Shown here: in pieces, positions 57,611 to 64,000 of the stretch
Layout: each line of letters opens with the position of its first letter
How positions within the stretch are numbered: the stretch's first letter is position 1
From: Pseudomonadota bacterium
GTDB lineage: Bacteria; Desulfobacterota; Binatia; Binatales; Binataceae
Direction: 5' to 3'
Length of the DNA stretch: 64,000 nucleotides
Assembly (NCBI GenBank): GCA_021325355.1
Contig: JAJPHI010000020.1
Span: 186,001 to 250,000, forward strand
Translations under genes and position numbers: made by a program
Notes under the pieces: model-generated
What the model saw: only the letters and a program-made list of their open reading frames with translations
Databases searched by the model: none
What the model was told of the DNA's origin: nothing

Positions 57611-58108
57611 CTAGCCGCGAGCGCCGCCGTCCAGCATCGCTTTCAGCGATCGCAGCTCCTCGCGGATTTCACTGAGCGTCGCCGCCAATTGCGGACCGGC
57701 GCCGACCCCGTTCAGCGCCGGCTGCGCCTCCGCGCCACCCTTGGGCTCGCCACCCGACGACTTCATCGCCGCGCACAATCGTTCGAGACCGACTTCACGA
57801 ATATGGCGGCGGGCGCCCGCGATGGTATAGCCCTCCAGATGGAGCAGGCGTTTGACCAGCCGCAAAAGCTCGATGTCCCGCGCTTCGTACAAGCGATGGG
57901 ACGACGCTGCATGGCGCGGGCGCAAGAACGAGAACTGCGTCTCCCAGAAGCGCAGCACGTAAGGCTCGACGCCCAAAAGGCGCGCAGCCTCCCCGATCCG
58001 CATCAATTCCGGCTTGCCGTCCTGTGGCCCGATGCTCCGTCGCTCCGGTTTGGCCGCGACCTTCGGCCGCGGCTTGCGCGGAGCGGGCGCCCGCCGCCGG
58101 GTCTTCAC
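57611..58108 (-). CDS. MerR family transcriptional regulator
   Basis: 165 aa. The helix-turn-helix LMRIGEAARLLGVEPYVLRFWETQF (about 35-60) and the following wing, RHAASSHRLYEARDIELLRLVKRLL, are MerR type. The linker helix GYTIAGARRHIR follows. The C terminus has no conserved metal-binding cysteine. GTG start overlaps the ihfA stop (GTGA). MerR genes at this place beside ihfA and pheT are common in deltaproteobacteria. Target unknown; the N-terminal extension (about 34 residues) is Lys/Arg-rich. Confidence 0.85.
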   Translation of the reverse strand: MKTRRRAPAPRKPRPKVAAKPERRSIGPQDGKPELMRIGEAARLLGVEPYVLRFWETQFSFLRPRHAASSHRLYEARDIELLRLVKRLLHLEGYTIAGARRHIREVGLERLCAAMKSSGGEPKGGAEAQPALNGVGAGPQLAATLSEIREELRSLKAMLDGGARG

Positions 58109-58398
58109 CGGATTTGGCTCCCCGCGGCCACTCGCGCCCTGAGCGCTTCACTCGGGCGAAACGAAAGCACGGCGCGCGGCGCTATCGTGATCGCCTCGCC
58201 GGTCTGCGGATTGCGTCCGCGGCGCGCGGCCTTGCGATTGACGATGAAGCTGCCGAACCCGGCGATTTTTACCCCTTCGCCGCGCACCAGACAGTCGCGG
58301 ATAATCGCCAGCACCGCTTCCACTGCGGCACCCACTTCGGCCTGCGAACCCTCCTCGAGCCTCTCGCGAACCCGCGCCACCAAATCGGCTTTTGTCAT
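58105..58398 (-). CDS. ihfA: Integration host factor alpha subunit (HU family)
   Basis: DNA-bending protein, 97 aa. HU/IHF fold with FGSFIVNRKAARRGRNPQTGE and the C-terminal arm; RNP-type NPQTGE motif marks the DNA-binding loop. The position just after pheT is the classical one for ihfA, which supports IHF-alpha over HU. It starts 34 nt after pheT and overlaps the merR gene by four bases. Confidence 0.92.
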   Translation of the reverse strand: MTKADLVARVRERLEEGSQAEVGAAVEAVLAIIRDCLVRGEGVKIAGFGSFIVNRKAARRGRNPQTGEAITIAPRAVLSFRPSEALRARVAAGSQIR

Positions 58399-58432: not shown

Positions 58433-60883
58433 CTACGAGCGCAGGCTCGCGCCCAGCTTCCGGGCCACCTGGTCCACCAACCCGGTATGTGTGCGGTTCA
58501 CTTCTTCGTCGGTCAGGGTTCGGTCCGCGCTGCGGTACCGACACGCTACGGCGACGCTCTTCTTCTCGTCCCCCAGATTACCGCCTTCGAAAACGTCGAA
58601 TAACTCAACACTTTCGAGCATCGGCGCATTCCCGGTCCAGAACGCCTTCAGCACCTCGCCAGCCGCCAGCGTCTTGTTCACCACGAGCGCGACATCGCGC
58701 CGGACGGCCGGAAAACGCGGCGGCGGCACAATCGTATGATATAGCTTGGAAGAATGTACGGCAAGTAAAGTTACGTCGAGTTCAAAAAGGCTACAAGGAG
58801 CAGATATCTCCAGCCGCAGCGCTTCCGCCGGATGAAGCTCACCCACGAGACCAATCAGCTCGCCGCCACATTTGATCGTCGCCGCGCGTCCCGGATGCAG
58901 ATACGGCGCCTGCGGTGATTCTATCGGCTCGTAACTCACCGCGCCCTGCGGCAATAGCGCACTCAGGCACGCTTCGAGGATTCCCTTGACCGTAAAGAAT
59001 CCTGACTTTATCGGCGCCTGACCGATCCCCCCGTAAGCGTAGTCGCCAAAACTGACGCCGGCAACCCGCGCCGACTCGCGCGCGCCCTCATCCATCTCGC
59101 CGAAGACCTTGCCGATCTCGAACAGATGCACCGCGCTCGCTTCGCGATTCAGATTGAAGCGCAAGGCGCCGAGCAAACCCGGCAGCAGGCTTGCCCGCAT
59201 CTCGGAAAGCTCGCTCGATAATGGATTGGTCACGACGAGCGGCCGGCTCGCCTGGAGCGACGGAAAATGCCGATTATCTTCGGGCGCGACGAACGCGAGC
59301 GTCCGCGCCTCCACCAGCCCGCATCCGGTCAGCAGATCGCGCAATTTCCGCGCGAGCGCGCGATCCCGATTCGGCGGTAACACGCCCGCGCGCCGCACCG
59401 GTAGTTCGGCCGGGATTTCGCTCAAGCCCTTGAGCCGGGCGACCTCCTCGACCAAATCCGCGGTTTCGTTCAGATCGGGGCGAAAACTCGGGGGCACCGC
59501 TTCGATCCGGTTCGGGTCAAGAAGGGTTACCGTCACGCCGACCGCGCGCAGGCGCCGCTTTATCTCCTCGTCCGGCAGGCGCGTGCCCAGGGCCGCGGCC
59601 ACCCCGCCCAAATCGACCGTGATCCGCCGTTCGGCCGCCGGCCGCGGCTCGAGATCGACGAGCGGCGCCGCCACCCGCCCGCCCGCAAGCTGCTGCACGA
59701 GCTCGGCCGCGCGCCGCAGCGCGTTCGCCTGTCCGGCGCGATCGATTCCGCGCTCGAATCGATAACTCGATTCGCTCCGCAGTCCGAGCCGCCGCGCCGT
59801 CCGCGCGATGCTCGCGGGCTCGAAGTAAGCGCTCTCGAGAATGATCGCCGTCGTCGTTTCGCTGACTTCGGAATTCCGCCCGCCCATCACCCCGGCAATC
59901 GCCAGCACCCGTTCGCGATCGGCGATCACCAGGTCGCTCGCGTTGAGCCTCCGCTCGACTCCGTCGAGCGTCGTGAAGGCGCTGTCACGCTCGGCGCGGC
60001 GCACCACGATCTCACGCTCGCGGATCTGACTGGCGTCGAAGGCGTGCAGCGGCTGCCCCAGCTCCAGCATGACGTAGTTGGTAATATCCACCACGTTGTT
60101 GAGCCCGCGCATCCCGCACAATTCGAGCCGGCGCCGTAGCCAAATCGGCGACGGTCGAATGCTGATTCCGCTCATCGGCAGCGCGGCATAGCGCGGACAC
60201 AATTCCGGCGCCTCGATCCTGACCCGCACGCGATCGCGCTCGCTGCCCGCCGGCGCCGCCTCCAACTCAAGGAAGTGCGGCTGGCGGAGCGGCGCATCGA
60301 ACAGCGCCGCGACCTCCCGCGCGAGCCCATACACCGAGAGACAGTCGCCGCGGTTCGGCGTAATCGCGATATCCAGCACGGTGTCAGGAAGCCCCAGGAC
60401 TTCGCTCAGGGCAACGCCCGGCGGCGTGTCGGCCGGGAGCTCGAGAATCCCCTCATGATCCTTCGACAGCGCGAGCTCGAGCTCCGAACACAACATCCCC
60501 TCGGAGCGCACGCCGCGAATCACCGCGGCTTCGAGCGGCGGCGCCTCCTCGATTCGTCCGCTGCCGCTGCCGTGGGCGCCGGCCGCGAGCCGCGCGCCCA
60601 CCCGGGCCAGCGCCGCCTTCATCCCGGCGCGCACGTTCGGCGCTCCGCACACCACCCGATAGCGCCCCGCCACCCCGGCATCGACGTCGCAGACGCTCAG
60701 CCGATCGGCATTCGGATGGCGCTCGACGGCGCGCACCTCCGCCGTATAGACATCAAGAAAGGCGGGCTTTAGATGCTCGACCGCCTCGACTTCGAGACCG
60801 GCCACGGTCAGGCGCCGGCAGAGTTCCTCGCCGTCGGCCTCGAGCGTGACGAATTCGCCGAGCCAACTGAGCGGCAGCTTCAC
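58433..60883 (-). CDS. pheT: Phenylalanine-tRNA ligase beta subunit
   Basis: 816 aa, normal size. The N-terminal tRNA-binding domain (about 40-150, VEHLKPAFLDVYTAEVRAV) precedes the B3/B4 editing domain and B5 domain, with a C-terminal ferredoxin-fold anticodon-binding domain (about 720-816) containing FPAVRRDVALVV. It starts with GTG that overlaps the pheS stop (GTGA). Forms the alpha2-beta2 enzyme with PheS. Confidence 0.97.
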   Translation of the reverse strand: MKLPLSWLGEFVTLEADGEELCRRLTVAGLEVEAVEHLKPAFLDVYTAEVRAVERHPNADRLSVCDVDAGVAGRYRVVCGAPNVRAGMKAALARVGARLAAGAHGSGSGRIEEAPPLEAAVIRGVRSEGMLCSELELALSKDHEGILELPADTPPGVALSEVLGLPDTVLDIAITPNRGDCLSVYGLAREVAALFDAPLRQPHFLELEAAPAGSERDRVRVRIEAPELCPRYAALPMSGISIRPSPIWLRRRLELCGMRGLNNVVDITNYVMLELGQPLHAFDASQIREREIVVRRAERDSAFTTLDGVERRLNASDLVIADRERVLAIAGVMGGRNSEVSETTTAIILESAYFEPASIARTARRLGLRSESSYRFERGIDRAGQANALRRAAELVQQLAGGRVAAPLVDLEPRPAAERRITVDLGGVAAALGTRLPDEEIKRRLRAVGVTVTLLDPNRIEAVPPSFRPDLNETADLVEEVARLKGLSEIPAELPVRRAGVLPPNRDRALARKLRDLLTGCGLVEARTLAFVAPEDNRHFPSLQASRPLVVTNPLSSELSEMRASLLPGLLGALRFNLNREASAVHLFEIGKVFGEMDEGARESARVAGVSFGDYAYGGIGQAPIKSGFFTVKGILEACLSALLPQGAVSYEPIESPQAPYLHPGRAATIKCGGELIGLVGELHPAEALRLEISAPCSLFELDVTLLAVHSSKLYHTIVPPPRFPAVRRDVALVVNKTLAAGEVLKAFWTGNAPMLESVELFDVFEGGNLGDEKKSVAVACRYRSADRTLTDEEVNRTHTGLVDQVARKLGASLRS

Positions 60884-61926
60884 GATGCCGCCTCGCCGGC
60901 GCGAAATTGCGCCAAAAAACGCAGGTCATTCTCGAAAAAGAGCCGCATATCATCGACGCCGAGTTTCAGCAGCGAAGTTCGCTCAATCCCCATCCCGAAG
61001 GCAAAGCCCGCGTACTGCATCGGATCATAACCGACCGCGCGCAGAACGTTCGGATGAATCATTCCGGAACCCAGGATTTCCGTCCATCCACTTTGTTTGC
61101 ACACCCGGCATCCGGCCCCCTTGCAGAGCAGACAGGAAATATCCACCTCCGCGCTCGGCTCGGTAAACGGGAAAAAACTCGCGCGAAACCGCACCCCTGT
61201 ATCGGGACCGAAGAAGGCGCGCAGAAATTCCGCGATAACCCCCTTCAGATGGGCCATCGAGATAACCCCCGCGCGGTCCACCATGAAACCCTCGATCTGG
61301 CTGAACATCGGCGAGGCGCGCACGCTCAGCTCGTCGCGCCGATAACAGTTCCCCGGACAGACGATCGCAAGCGGCGGCGACCGCCGTTCCATCACGCGGA
61401 TCTGACCGTTCGAGGTATGCGTCCGCAGCAGCATCCCGCCCGGCAGGAAAAACGTGTCCTGCATCTCGCGCGCCGGATGATCCGGCGGAAAATTGAGTGC
61501 GCCGAAATTATGGAAATCGTCCTCGAGGTCCTGCGTCTCGACCACCTCGAAGCCCATCGCTTCGAAAATCTCGAGCATCCGCTCGCGCGTCTGCGTCAGC
61601 GGATGGCTCCAGCCGCGCGGCATCCGCAATCCCGGCAGTGTCACGTCGAGCCGCGCTTCCGCCAGCGAGCGGCTCAGCGCTTCGCGCCGCCGATGCTCGA
61701 CCAACTGCGCGATGCGCGCCTCGACCTCGTTCTTGATCTCATTGACCAGGCGCCCGACGAGCGGCTTTTCCGCCGGCGGCACCTCGCGCATCCGCCGCAT
61801 GATCTCGGTCAGCTCGCCCGAGCGTCCGAGCACGCGCACGCGCACCGCCTCGATTTGCGCCTCGTCCGCCTCGTCGCTCAATTCGCCGAGCGCCCGTGTC
61901 CGGATTTCTTCCAGTTGCGCTTTCAT
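60880..61926 (-). CDS. pheS: Phenylalanine-tRNA ligase alpha subunit
   Basis: Catalytic alpha subunit, 348 aa, class II synthetase. After an N-terminal coiled coil the catalytic core has HPLTQTRE, FWPPDHPARE-like FPPDHPAREMQDTF, GNCYRRDE, motif-2 type FSQIEGFMVD and a C-terminal YAGFAFGMGIERTSLL (motif 3). A Cys cluster (CLLCKGAGCRVC) may hold zinc; it also occurs in some other PheS proteins. It lies 184 nt after rplT; no attenuator was recognised. Confidence 0.97.
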   Translation of the reverse strand: MKAQLEEIRTRALGELSDEADEAQIEAVRVRVLGRSGELTEIMRRMREVPPAEKPLVGRLVNEIKNEVEARIAQLVEHRRREALSRSLAEARLDVTLPGLRMPRGWSHPLTQTRERMLEIFEAMGFEVVETQDLEDDFHNFGALNFPPDHPAREMQDTFFLPGGMLLRTHTSNGQIRVMERRSPPLAIVCPGNCYRRDELSVRASPMFSQIEGFMVDRAGVISMAHLKGVIAEFLRAFFGPDTGVRFRASFFPFTEPSAEVDISCLLCKGAGCRVCKQSGWTEILGSGMIHPNVLRAVGYDPMQYAGFAFGMGIERTSLLKLGVDDMRLFFENDLRFLAQFRAGEAAS

Positions 61927-62110: not shown

Positions 62111-62479
62111 CTATGCTGCCTGGGGCTGCTCGAGCGCCTGCTTCGCCGCCTTGACCAGATCCCCGAAGAGCTGATCGCGGTTCATCGCCAGCAGCGCGAG
62201 CTGTTTGCGATCGAGCTCGATACCGGCGCGCTTCAGCCCGCTGACAAAGCGGCTGTAGCTCAGACCATGCTCCCGTACGAGGGCGTTGATTCGCACAATC
62301 CACAAGGCGCGAAAATTCCGCTTCTTCTGTTTACGGTCCCGATAGGCGTACGTCAGGCCCTTTTCGAGCGTGCTGCGAGCCTGCCGGTAAAGTTTGCGTC
62401 CGCCGACAAAACCGGCGGCGAGCTTGAGCTGCCGCTTATGGCGGCGGCGGGTCTTCGGACCCCCCTTGGCGCGTGGCAT
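62111..62479 (-). CDS. rplT: 50S ribosomal protein L20
   Basis: 122 aa, basic, family start [15 protein letters not shown] and [18 protein letters not shown]. It binds 23S rRNA and regulates its own operon in several bacteria. Order infC-rpmI-rplT is intact; a 105-nt gap separates it from rpmI. Confidence 0.97.
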
Positions 62480-62584: not shown

Positions 62585-62782
62585 TCACTGGTAAGGCATC
62601 AGGGCATGCACCGTCGCACTGTCCGTCCGATTGAGCGTGCCCGGATGGCGCAGGTTGCGCTTGCGCCCGCGGTTCTTGCTCGACAGCAGATGGCGCAGGT
62701 AGGCCCGCTTGTGCTTGACCTTCCCGGTCTTGCTGAACTTGAAGCGTTTCGCCGCGCTTCTCGAGGTCTTCAGCTTTGGCAT
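62585..62782 (-). CDS. rpmI: 50S ribosomal protein L35
   Basis: 65 aa, very basic, from the Met at 62782 (MPKLKTSRSAAKRF). An upstream in-frame Met at 62815 gives 11 extra unconserved residues and is not used. The typical RKRNLRHPGTLN is present. 98 nt separate it from infC. Confidence 0.95.
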   Translation of the reverse strand: MPKLKTSRSAAKRFKFSKTGKVKHKRAYLRHLLSSKNRGRKRNLRHPGTLNRTDSATVHALMPYQ

Positions 62783-62880: not shown

Positions 62881-63417
62881 CTAGCGCGGCGTCAGCAGCA
62901 CCGACATCGTTCGCCCTTCCATTCGCGCGGCCCCTTCCGATTGGGCGATATCCCGCACCTGTTCAACCACGCCGTCAATCAAGGCGCGGCCAAGCTCAGG
63001 ATGCGCCATCTGGCGTCCGCGAAACGAAACCGTGAGCTTAACACGCTGACCGTCACCGACAAAGCGCCGGATATGCTTGACCTTGAAATCGACGTCGTGC
63101 TTGTCGGTCAGGGCGCCCATCTTGACTTCCTTGATTCCACCGCTGGCGGAACCGCGCTTGGAATCGTGCGCCTTTTTCTTCTGCGCGTAGCGAAACTTGT
63201 CGAAATCCGTGATGCGACAGACCGGCGGCTGCGCCGTCGCCGCAACCTCGACCAAATCGAGACCACGGCTCTCGGCAAGGCGGATAGCGTCGCGCGTGCT
63301 CATGATGCCGACCTGCTTGCCGTCGGAATCGATCACTCTCACCTCTGGAACCCGAATCAATTGATTGACGCGCGCGGCCGGTTCCCGGGTTGGCGGCGTA
63401 CGAAAATCCCTACGAAT
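62881..63417 (-). CDS. infC: Translation initiation factor IF-3, AUU start
   Basis: 178 aa. IF-3 N domain RVNQLIRVPEVRVIDSDG, linker, then the C domain with GALTDKHDVDFKVKHIRRF and VKLTVSFRGRQMAHPELG. The frame extends upstream past the TTG at 63360, and the conserved RVNQLIRVPEV is in that part. The start is ATT at 63417, with AGGAGG (63424-63429, complement) exactly 6 nt upstream. E. coli infC also starts at AUU, which IF-3 discriminates against, giving autoregulation. The gap to thrS is 150 nt. Confidence 0.94.
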   Translation of the reverse strand: MRRDFRTPPTREPAARVNQLIRVPEVRVIDSDGKQVGIMSTRDAIRLAESRGLDLVEVAATAQPPVCRITDFDKFRYAQKKKAHDSKRGSASGGIKEVKMGALTDKHDVDFKVKHIRRFVGDGQRVKLTVSFRGRQMAHPELGRALIDGVVEQVRDIAQSEGAARMEGRTMSVLLTPR

Positions 63418-63567
63418 AATTCACCTCCTGGCGGTCGTCATTGCCGCCCCCGCACTGCCGACGAGAGCGACGCTCGACCTTAATTTTTTCGCGCCCTGGC
63501 ACCCTCGCTCAAGCGCTTCGTTTCCGCTCGTTCCTCAACATAACATCGACGTTTCAAACTTCCAGCT

Positions 63568-64000
63568 TCATCCCGGCAGCGGCTCGCTCTTGAGCCGCGC
63601 CCGCAACTCCTCGAGCGACGCACTCTGATTCTTCTCGCCGCGCAGCAGCCGTATCGCGACGCTCCGCGCCGCCGCCTCGCGCTCGCCCACGACCACCATG
63701 TAGGGCACCTTGGCGAGCTCCCCCTCGCGCACCTTGAAGCCGAGCTTTTCATTGCGCAGGTCCGCGCTCGCCCGAAACCCATCCGCGCGCAGCAGCGCCG
63801 CCACTTCGGCCGCATACGCCTCGACCTTCTCGCTGAGCGACAGCACCCGCACCTGCTCCGGCGCGAGCCAGAACGGCAGGATGCCGCCCGTATGCTCGAG
63901 CAGCACGCCGATAAAGCGCTCGACCGACCCCAGGATGGCCCGATGGATCATCACCGGCCGCTCCTCGCTCCCGCTGCTCGCCGTATAACTCAGGTCGAAG
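63568..64000 (-). CDS. thrS: Threonine-tRNA ligase, C-terminal part
   Basis: Only the last about 143 residues lie in the window; the gene continues past 64000. The visible part holds the end of the class II catalytic domain (ERPVMIHRAILGSVERF, motif 3 region) and the C-terminal anticodon-binding domain with LPFWLAPEQVRVL, DLRNEKLGFKVRE and VPYMVVVGERE. thrS-infC-rpmI-rplT-pheST is the classic order. Confidence 0.95.
   Translation of the reverse strand, partial: FDLSYTASSGSEERPVMIHRAILGSVERFIGVLLEHTGGILPFWLAPEQVRVLSLSEKVEAYAAEVAALLRADGFRASADLRNEKLGFKVREGELAKVPYMVVVGEREAAARSVAIRLLRGEKNQSASLEELRARLKSEPLPG

Follow-up and report, generated by a model that had tools for sequence, protein, structure and literature searches.

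In Escherichia coli K-12, infC, the gene encoding initiation factor IF3, starts with ATT behind GGAGG and lies in the gene order thrS-infC-rpmI-rplT-pheS. Butler et al. are said to have found in 1987 that the AUU is required for feedback in E. coli, and the same infC feedback is reportedly treated by Butler et al. (1986) and Sacerdot et al. (1996). In the excerpts of the literature considered here, an AUU start of infC is given for E. coli and Bacillus subtilis (PMC1805508), an ATT start with peptides upstream of the annotated start for Yersinia (PMC3091656) and Xanthomonas (PMC5559785), and an ATC start for Streptomyces (PMC5472188). The excerpt last named also states IF3 feedback on E. coli infC, and another names IF3, rather than L20, as the regulator of this gene (PMC10931766). 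For Staphylococcus aureus infC, AUA initiation was seen by Ribo-Ret and an extended Shine-Dalgarno (SD) sequence was predicted (PMC13009471, in the part considered).

Here we describe infC in a 64,000-nucleotide stretch of contig JAJPHI010000020.1 (the window) from a member of the family Binataceae. The genes from thrS to pheS and the elements of the infC start site all lie on its minus strand.

The infC start site in the window

The infC coding sequence (62881..63417) encodes an IF3 of 178 amino acids when read from AUU, as supported by family alignment and by Pfam matches above cut-off for both domains in the frame from 63417 (IF3_N, 106.3 bits, model positions 1-69; IF3_C, 102.6 bits). The product is thus a full-length IF3, and its own genome holds one IF3_N match. 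Read on the minus strand, the site consists of AGGAGG (63429-63424), TGAATT, and the ATT start codon (63417-63415), with a spacing of 6 nt, as the preliminary description of this DNA had reported; the domains and the conservation described below agree with it. AGGAGG is the core of an extended SD sequence, AGGAGGTGA (63421..63429), and the ATT lies 150 nt past the thrS stop (63568). An in-frame TGA (63421..63423) bars any start farther upstream, so that the usual or near-usual starts ahead of the N domain are limited to the ATT at 63417 and a second in-frame ATT at 63420.

The sole start offered by a mechanical open reading frame (ORF) finder is the TTG at 63358..63360, giving 159 amino acids, and the expectation that a gene finder would choose it was correct. 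This codon sits within the IF3 N-terminal domain. No ATG, GTG, or TTG start is possible without cutting into that domain, and an AUH codon (AUU, AUC, or AUA) stands behind the SD sequence.

The motif by itself is not significant: AGGAGGN6ATT occurs once in the window against 0.20 expected, and 18 of 100 shuffled sequences contained it at least once. Genome-wide, the pattern GGAGGTGNNNNATH was found six times, compared with four times for the reversed control pattern; the five other sites have frames of 1 to 40 amino acids, and the pattern revealed no further AUH-start genes in this genome. The significance of the AUU site lies in its place and its conservation, not in the motif alone.

Conservation of the start site in the family Binataceae

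In all 37 readable loci of the family, among them that of the window, an AUH codon follows GGAGG at a spacing of 6 nt (ATC in 23, ATT in 11, and ATA in 3), with GGAGGTG at equal distance throughout. When 30 family loci (the window's and 29 others) were placed by protein alignment instead, ATT, ATC, or ATA stood at the place of 63417 and GGAGGTG 4 nt ahead of it; the family loci align with the window's IF3 from residue 1, 4, or 7 onward. Loci L032 to L041, 10 of the 11 named family contigs, belong to genomes already among the family loci and are therefore not independent cases, and the eleventh, L042, ends before the start. The third base of the start codon is T, C, or A but never G, the outcome expected from selection against AUG. 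Conservation of AUU among close infC homologues, a check put forward in the preliminary description, was not found, since 11 of the 37 loci have AUU and the others AUC or AUA. Judged from these alignments, the conserved trait of infC starts in this lineage is AUH at 6-nt spacing rather than AUU.

The same comparison bears on the other conceivable starts. Initiation at ATT 63420, which would add one residue, is very unlikely: the codon is in frame and directly follows the TGA, but it stands just 3 nt past AGGAGG and is not conserved, its place in relatives being taken by TTT, CTT, AAT, CAT, TAT, ACT, CCT, TGC, or TAC and never by ATT. Translation from TTG 63360, giving a protein 19 residues shorter, is exceedingly improbable. 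It is the first in-frame ATG, GTG, or TTG, the shortened protein still reaches 103.1 bits for IF3_N (model positions 5-69), and a canonical codon occupies this place in five family loci (TTG in L028 and ATG in L026, L027, L029, and L030). However, no SD sequence is seen ahead of it, the other relatives have CAG, CAT, CTG, CTA, and other codons there, and the 19 residues ahead of it (IRRDFRTPP.REPA.RVNQ) are mostly conserved as protein in the family. The claim that this start would lose the conserved N-terminal region RVNQLIRVPEVRVID was correct in that 19 residues are gone but overstated, as only RVNQ of that sequence is lost, with the L replaced by the initiator M, and IF3_N retains most of its score.

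Termination-reinitiation from a six-codon ORF that ends at the infC start (ATG 63441 to TGA 63421) is likewise highly improbable. Such a mini-ORF is present in the window and in six of nine loci of family f12, but in only 4 of the 37 loci of the window's family, and its AGG AGG codons merely make up the SD sequence.

Gene order and infC starts across the class

Upstream of infC, the window contains the 3' end of thrS (63568..64000), cut by the window edge and named from gene order and domains (HGTP_anticodon above cut-off, tRNA-synt_2b below its own). Downstream are rpmI (62585..62782; L35, Ribosomal_L35p), rplT (62111..62479; L20, Ribosomal_L20), and an ORF at 60880..61926 that has a counterpart in the corresponding position in most relatives and that we take, from its sequence and the gene order, to be pheS. 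Farther on, downstream of pheT, ORFs at 57611-58398 may correspond to ihfA and a MerR-type regulator, which their translations resemble. The position of infC between thrS and rpmI-rplT, in the order thrS-infC-rpmI-rplT-pheS, matches that of E. coli.

For the class, 148 genomes were searched, 141 had a match, and 136 loci were read; G007 and G067 (contig ends) and G109, G110, and G129 were left out. The start was AUH in 109 loci, AUG or UUG in 26, and masked in 1. Twelve families use AUH, in 109 of their 110 loci (ATA, 64; ATC, 34; ATT, 11), the remaining one being the masked L213; ATA in L154 was set by eye to match the codon of its close relatives (the automatic pick was ATC). All 11 ATT codons belong to the window's family, and none of the 72 readable loci of the other AUH families has ATT. 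Five families are canonical, with ATG in all 12 loci of f6 and TTG in all 14 loci of f8, f11, f13, and f14. The SD spacing is 6 nt in AUH loci (the discarded automatic pick of L154 would make it 5) and 3 to 4 nt in 24 of the 26 canonical loci, and the median SD match per family is 6 to 9 bases versus 5 to 8 bases, respectively; these strengths and spacings are biased upward because class starts were selected by the best SD sequence in front, in contrast to the protein-placed rows of the 30-locus family alignment. The 26 AUG or UUG loci among the 136 indicate that the AUH device is dispensable.

Start codon and gene position go together within the class. In 30 loci of the window's family and 24 of other AUH families, infC is directly followed by rpmI and rplT in 54 of 54 cases and preceded by thrS in 52; of the two others, L015 is cut short and L253 has no thrS within 2.6 kb. 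Conversely, no thrS, rpmI, rplT, or pheS was seen near infC in any of 16 stretches from canonical families (L224 to L239, representing 16 of the 26 canonical loci), over the 5.9 to 7.6 kb read. The rplT loci of canonical genomes (L313 to L317 and L320 to L326) lack infC in 12 of 12 cases; rpmI is present in all 12 (printed as fragments in L313 and L315), pheS in 10, and thrS in 11, with none at L326 within about 1 kb upstream. Each of 19 canonical genomes has one IF3_C match above cut-off (a second match in G045 is below cut-off and contains a stop), and each of 5 has one IF3_N match. A second, weak infC match (E value, 8e-4) occurs in G107 of family f6. In the class loci examined, a canonical AUG or UUG start goes with an infC located outside the thrS-rpmI-rplT-pheS cluster.

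In the infC tree (midpoint rooted, about 160 residues), the canonical sequences form one clade (n = 16; support, 0.993) and the AUH sequences of the class stand apart (n = 23; 0.986). Sequences of the Bradymonadales group fall between the two with weak support (0.73 to 0.79). Since the canonical sequences form one clade, a single move or replacement of infC in the class is likely, although not proven by the tree. A tree of four cluster proteins places the UUG families together (95), the f6 sequences together (100), and f6 with f1 and f9 (64); with this last grouping, and with outgroup L069 falling inside, it does not settle the number of moves.

A thrS-infC fusion, suggested by open frames of 849 amino acids in an f9 genome and 916 amino acids in an f6 genome around infC, was ruled out: translation of 801 nt at each of 16 loci showed the f9 upstream frames to be low-complexity, alternative-frame sequences that are not ThrRS.

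infC starts in other bacterial groups

Comparison groups were drawn around five loci, with phylum names inferred, and AUH calls in them include "forced" ones, in which the frame contains no ATG, GTG, or TTG ahead of the domain (as far as a stop or within 50 codons). On this basis, AUH was called in 22 of 30 loci around L066 (Hyphomicrobiales), 17 of 30 around L062 (Planctomycetes), 28 of 30 around L108 (Anaerolineales), 19 of 24 around L069 (Bradymonadales; one further locus was unscored), 15 of 30 around L105 (uncultured Bacilli), and 8 of 10 single loci. AUH is the commoner infC call in most groups surveyed. In six forced calls (L267, L277, L304, L350, L383, and L388), no AUH codon is preceded by at least 5 bases of SD match, and some canonical calls are doubtful as well; L294, for example, has ATTATTAAG behind GGAG and an ATG farther in.

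A general rule that an infC outside the operon has a canonical start fits the class loci examined and was rejected because it fails in other groups. In the L105 group, 13 of 30 loci have ATG with infC inside an infC-rpmI-rplT cluster. In the L108 group, no cluster gene was seen close to infC in six AUH loci, of which one (L364) is cut by a contig end. The best infC start is GTG, with rpmI, rplT, and pheS downstream, in six Planctomycetota loci (L074, L086, L087, L106, L107, and L110) from the untallied set of 69 loci L043 to L111. Cluster position does not dictate the infC start codon across groups.

The ATG loci of the L105 group (L415 to L419, L421, L422, L424, L425, L428, L429, L431, and L433), with infC in the cluster, come from genomes of 0.8 to 1.3 Mb, and other members of the group start infC with ATT or ATA. 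Four loci, L348, L335, and L350 of the L062 group and L380 of the L108 group, lack any ATG, GTG, TTG, or AUH codon preceded by at least 5 bases of SD match. Candidate starts in these are ACG in L348 (SD match of 7 nt, spacing of 6) and L335 (6 nt, spacing of 7) and CTG in L350 (8 nt, spacing of 6) and L380 (6 nt, spacing of 5), suggesting that initiation of infC at ACG or CUG is possible there.

A candidate stem-loop adjoining the Shine-Dalgarno sequence

A candidate stem-loop, GGCGG-9 nt-CCGCC (63430..63448), adjoins the SD sequence of the window. With 5 bp and a 9-nt loop it is weak in its own genome (P = 0.116 against 300 shuffles), and longer folds favor other pairs. Stem-loops adjoining the SD sequence were also seen at the matching place in L006, L009, L014, and L021, and in many relatives they are stronger than in the window. 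A hairpin scoring at least 14 and ending at most 3 nt from the SD sequence is present in 26 of 37 family loci versus 10 of 97 in other families. By gene, within the 30 family loci, it was found in front of infC in 20 of 30, rpmI in 0 of 8, and rplT in 0 of 27, counting for rpmI and rplT only genes with a recognizable SD sequence. The median shuffle P values per genus, combined over 16 genera, gave 6e-4; medians above 0.14 were obtained for g2, g4, g5, g8, g12, g14, and g16, and one of the three g4 sequences has a strong hairpin.

Covariation was scored in 14 of the 37 sequences (11 distinct), picked for a 6-nt loop in one register, a choice of rows that itself favors the structure. In this set, 98.5% of the cells pair, compared with at most 63.6% in slid versions, and double-sided changes occur in two of the six pairs (10 cells). 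None of 500 shuffles attained the covariation score of 0.400. The number of double-change pairs, however, was attained in 318 of 500 shuffles and the number of further pair types in 496 of 500, and neither measure supports the stem-loop.

No Rfam family, including an L20 leader of the B. subtilis type before infC, was found at gathering score in the window; a diverged leader could escape such a search.

Discussion

The start site, the conservation of AUH, and the gene cluster were observed in this lineage, and the rejection by IF3 and the resulting feedback we infer from work on E. coli. Taken as a whole, it is very likely that infC is translated from the AUU at 63417 and that IF3 rejects the complex formed there, yielding feedback. 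The strong, well-spaced SD sequence would recruit the 30S subunit to the infC start, and the AUU, pairing imperfectly with the initiator tRNA, would make the complex liable to be rejected by IF3. With abundant free IF3, the complex would be rejected and IF3 synthesis would fall; with scarce IF3, synthesis would rise. Such feedback could set IF3 at its own level despite the cluster shared with thrS, rpmI, rplT, and pheS. By analogy with E. coli, IF3 feedback is the likely function of the AUH start.

That AUU merely dims IF3 output to a fixed level, without IF3 feedback, we consider unlikely. The mix of AUC, AUA, and AUU in the family would be compatible with a plain dimmer, and near-cognate starts cut the reporter yield of three other S. 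aureus genes according to an excerpt of PMC13009471. However, the AUU is reportedly required for feedback in E. coli (Butler et al. 1987), feedback on E. coli infC is stated in the excerpt of PMC5472188, and the gene that has the AUH trait is the one encoding the factor that rejects such codons.

It is conceivable, although rather doubtful, that some Binataceae have a covarying stem-loop against the infC SD sequence that cooperates with the AUH start and further adjusts IF3 feedback, for instance by leaving the SD sequence accessible or through stacking on the SD helix, with the five other families, whose infC lies outside the cluster and starts with AUG or UUG, serving as a natural test of when feedback is given up. 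Both states occur in the class, with AUH inside the cluster and AUG or UUG outside it, and their comparison could reveal what the feedback is worth. In practical terms, the AUU start corrects the N terminus of IF3, an essential protein, for a lineage without cultured members, in which gene finders restricted to ATG, GTG, and TTG would truncate or misplace infC.

Among the literature matches listed, from a search that mostly did not extend to subscription literature, no paper on infC starts in Binatota was met. The preliminary description had proposed a strong SD sequence with a noncanonical start in a lineage far from E. coli, which the present data support, and had rightly pointed to the E. 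coli AUU start, which the K-12 sequence contains. Its further point, the extension of the arrangement to a different-looking lineage, holds but adds nothing new in kind: as AUU, AUC, and AUA starts of infC have already been published for distant bacteria, the Binataceae case is a further example of a known arrangement.

The window shares with E. coli the AUU, the SD sequence ahead of it, and the thrS-infC-rpmI-rplT-pheS order. It differs from E. coli in its longer SD match (AGGAGGTGA) and in that most of its relatives have AUC or AUA, and feedback is here suggested by analogy. As far as the excerpts cited above describe them, infC of Streptomyces (ATC) and S. aureus (AUA) also has noncanonical AUH starts, the latter with an extended SD sequence too; both belong to other phyla, and initiation in S. 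aureus was seen by Ribo-Ret, whereas the window is known from sequence. The excerpts on Xanthomonas, Yersinia, and B. subtilis give the same ATT (AUU) start as in the window, with proteomic support in the first two, while the support here is comparative. Set beside these systems, the infC AUU start of the window is a well-supported but ordinary case of what is probably the known self-limiting switch.
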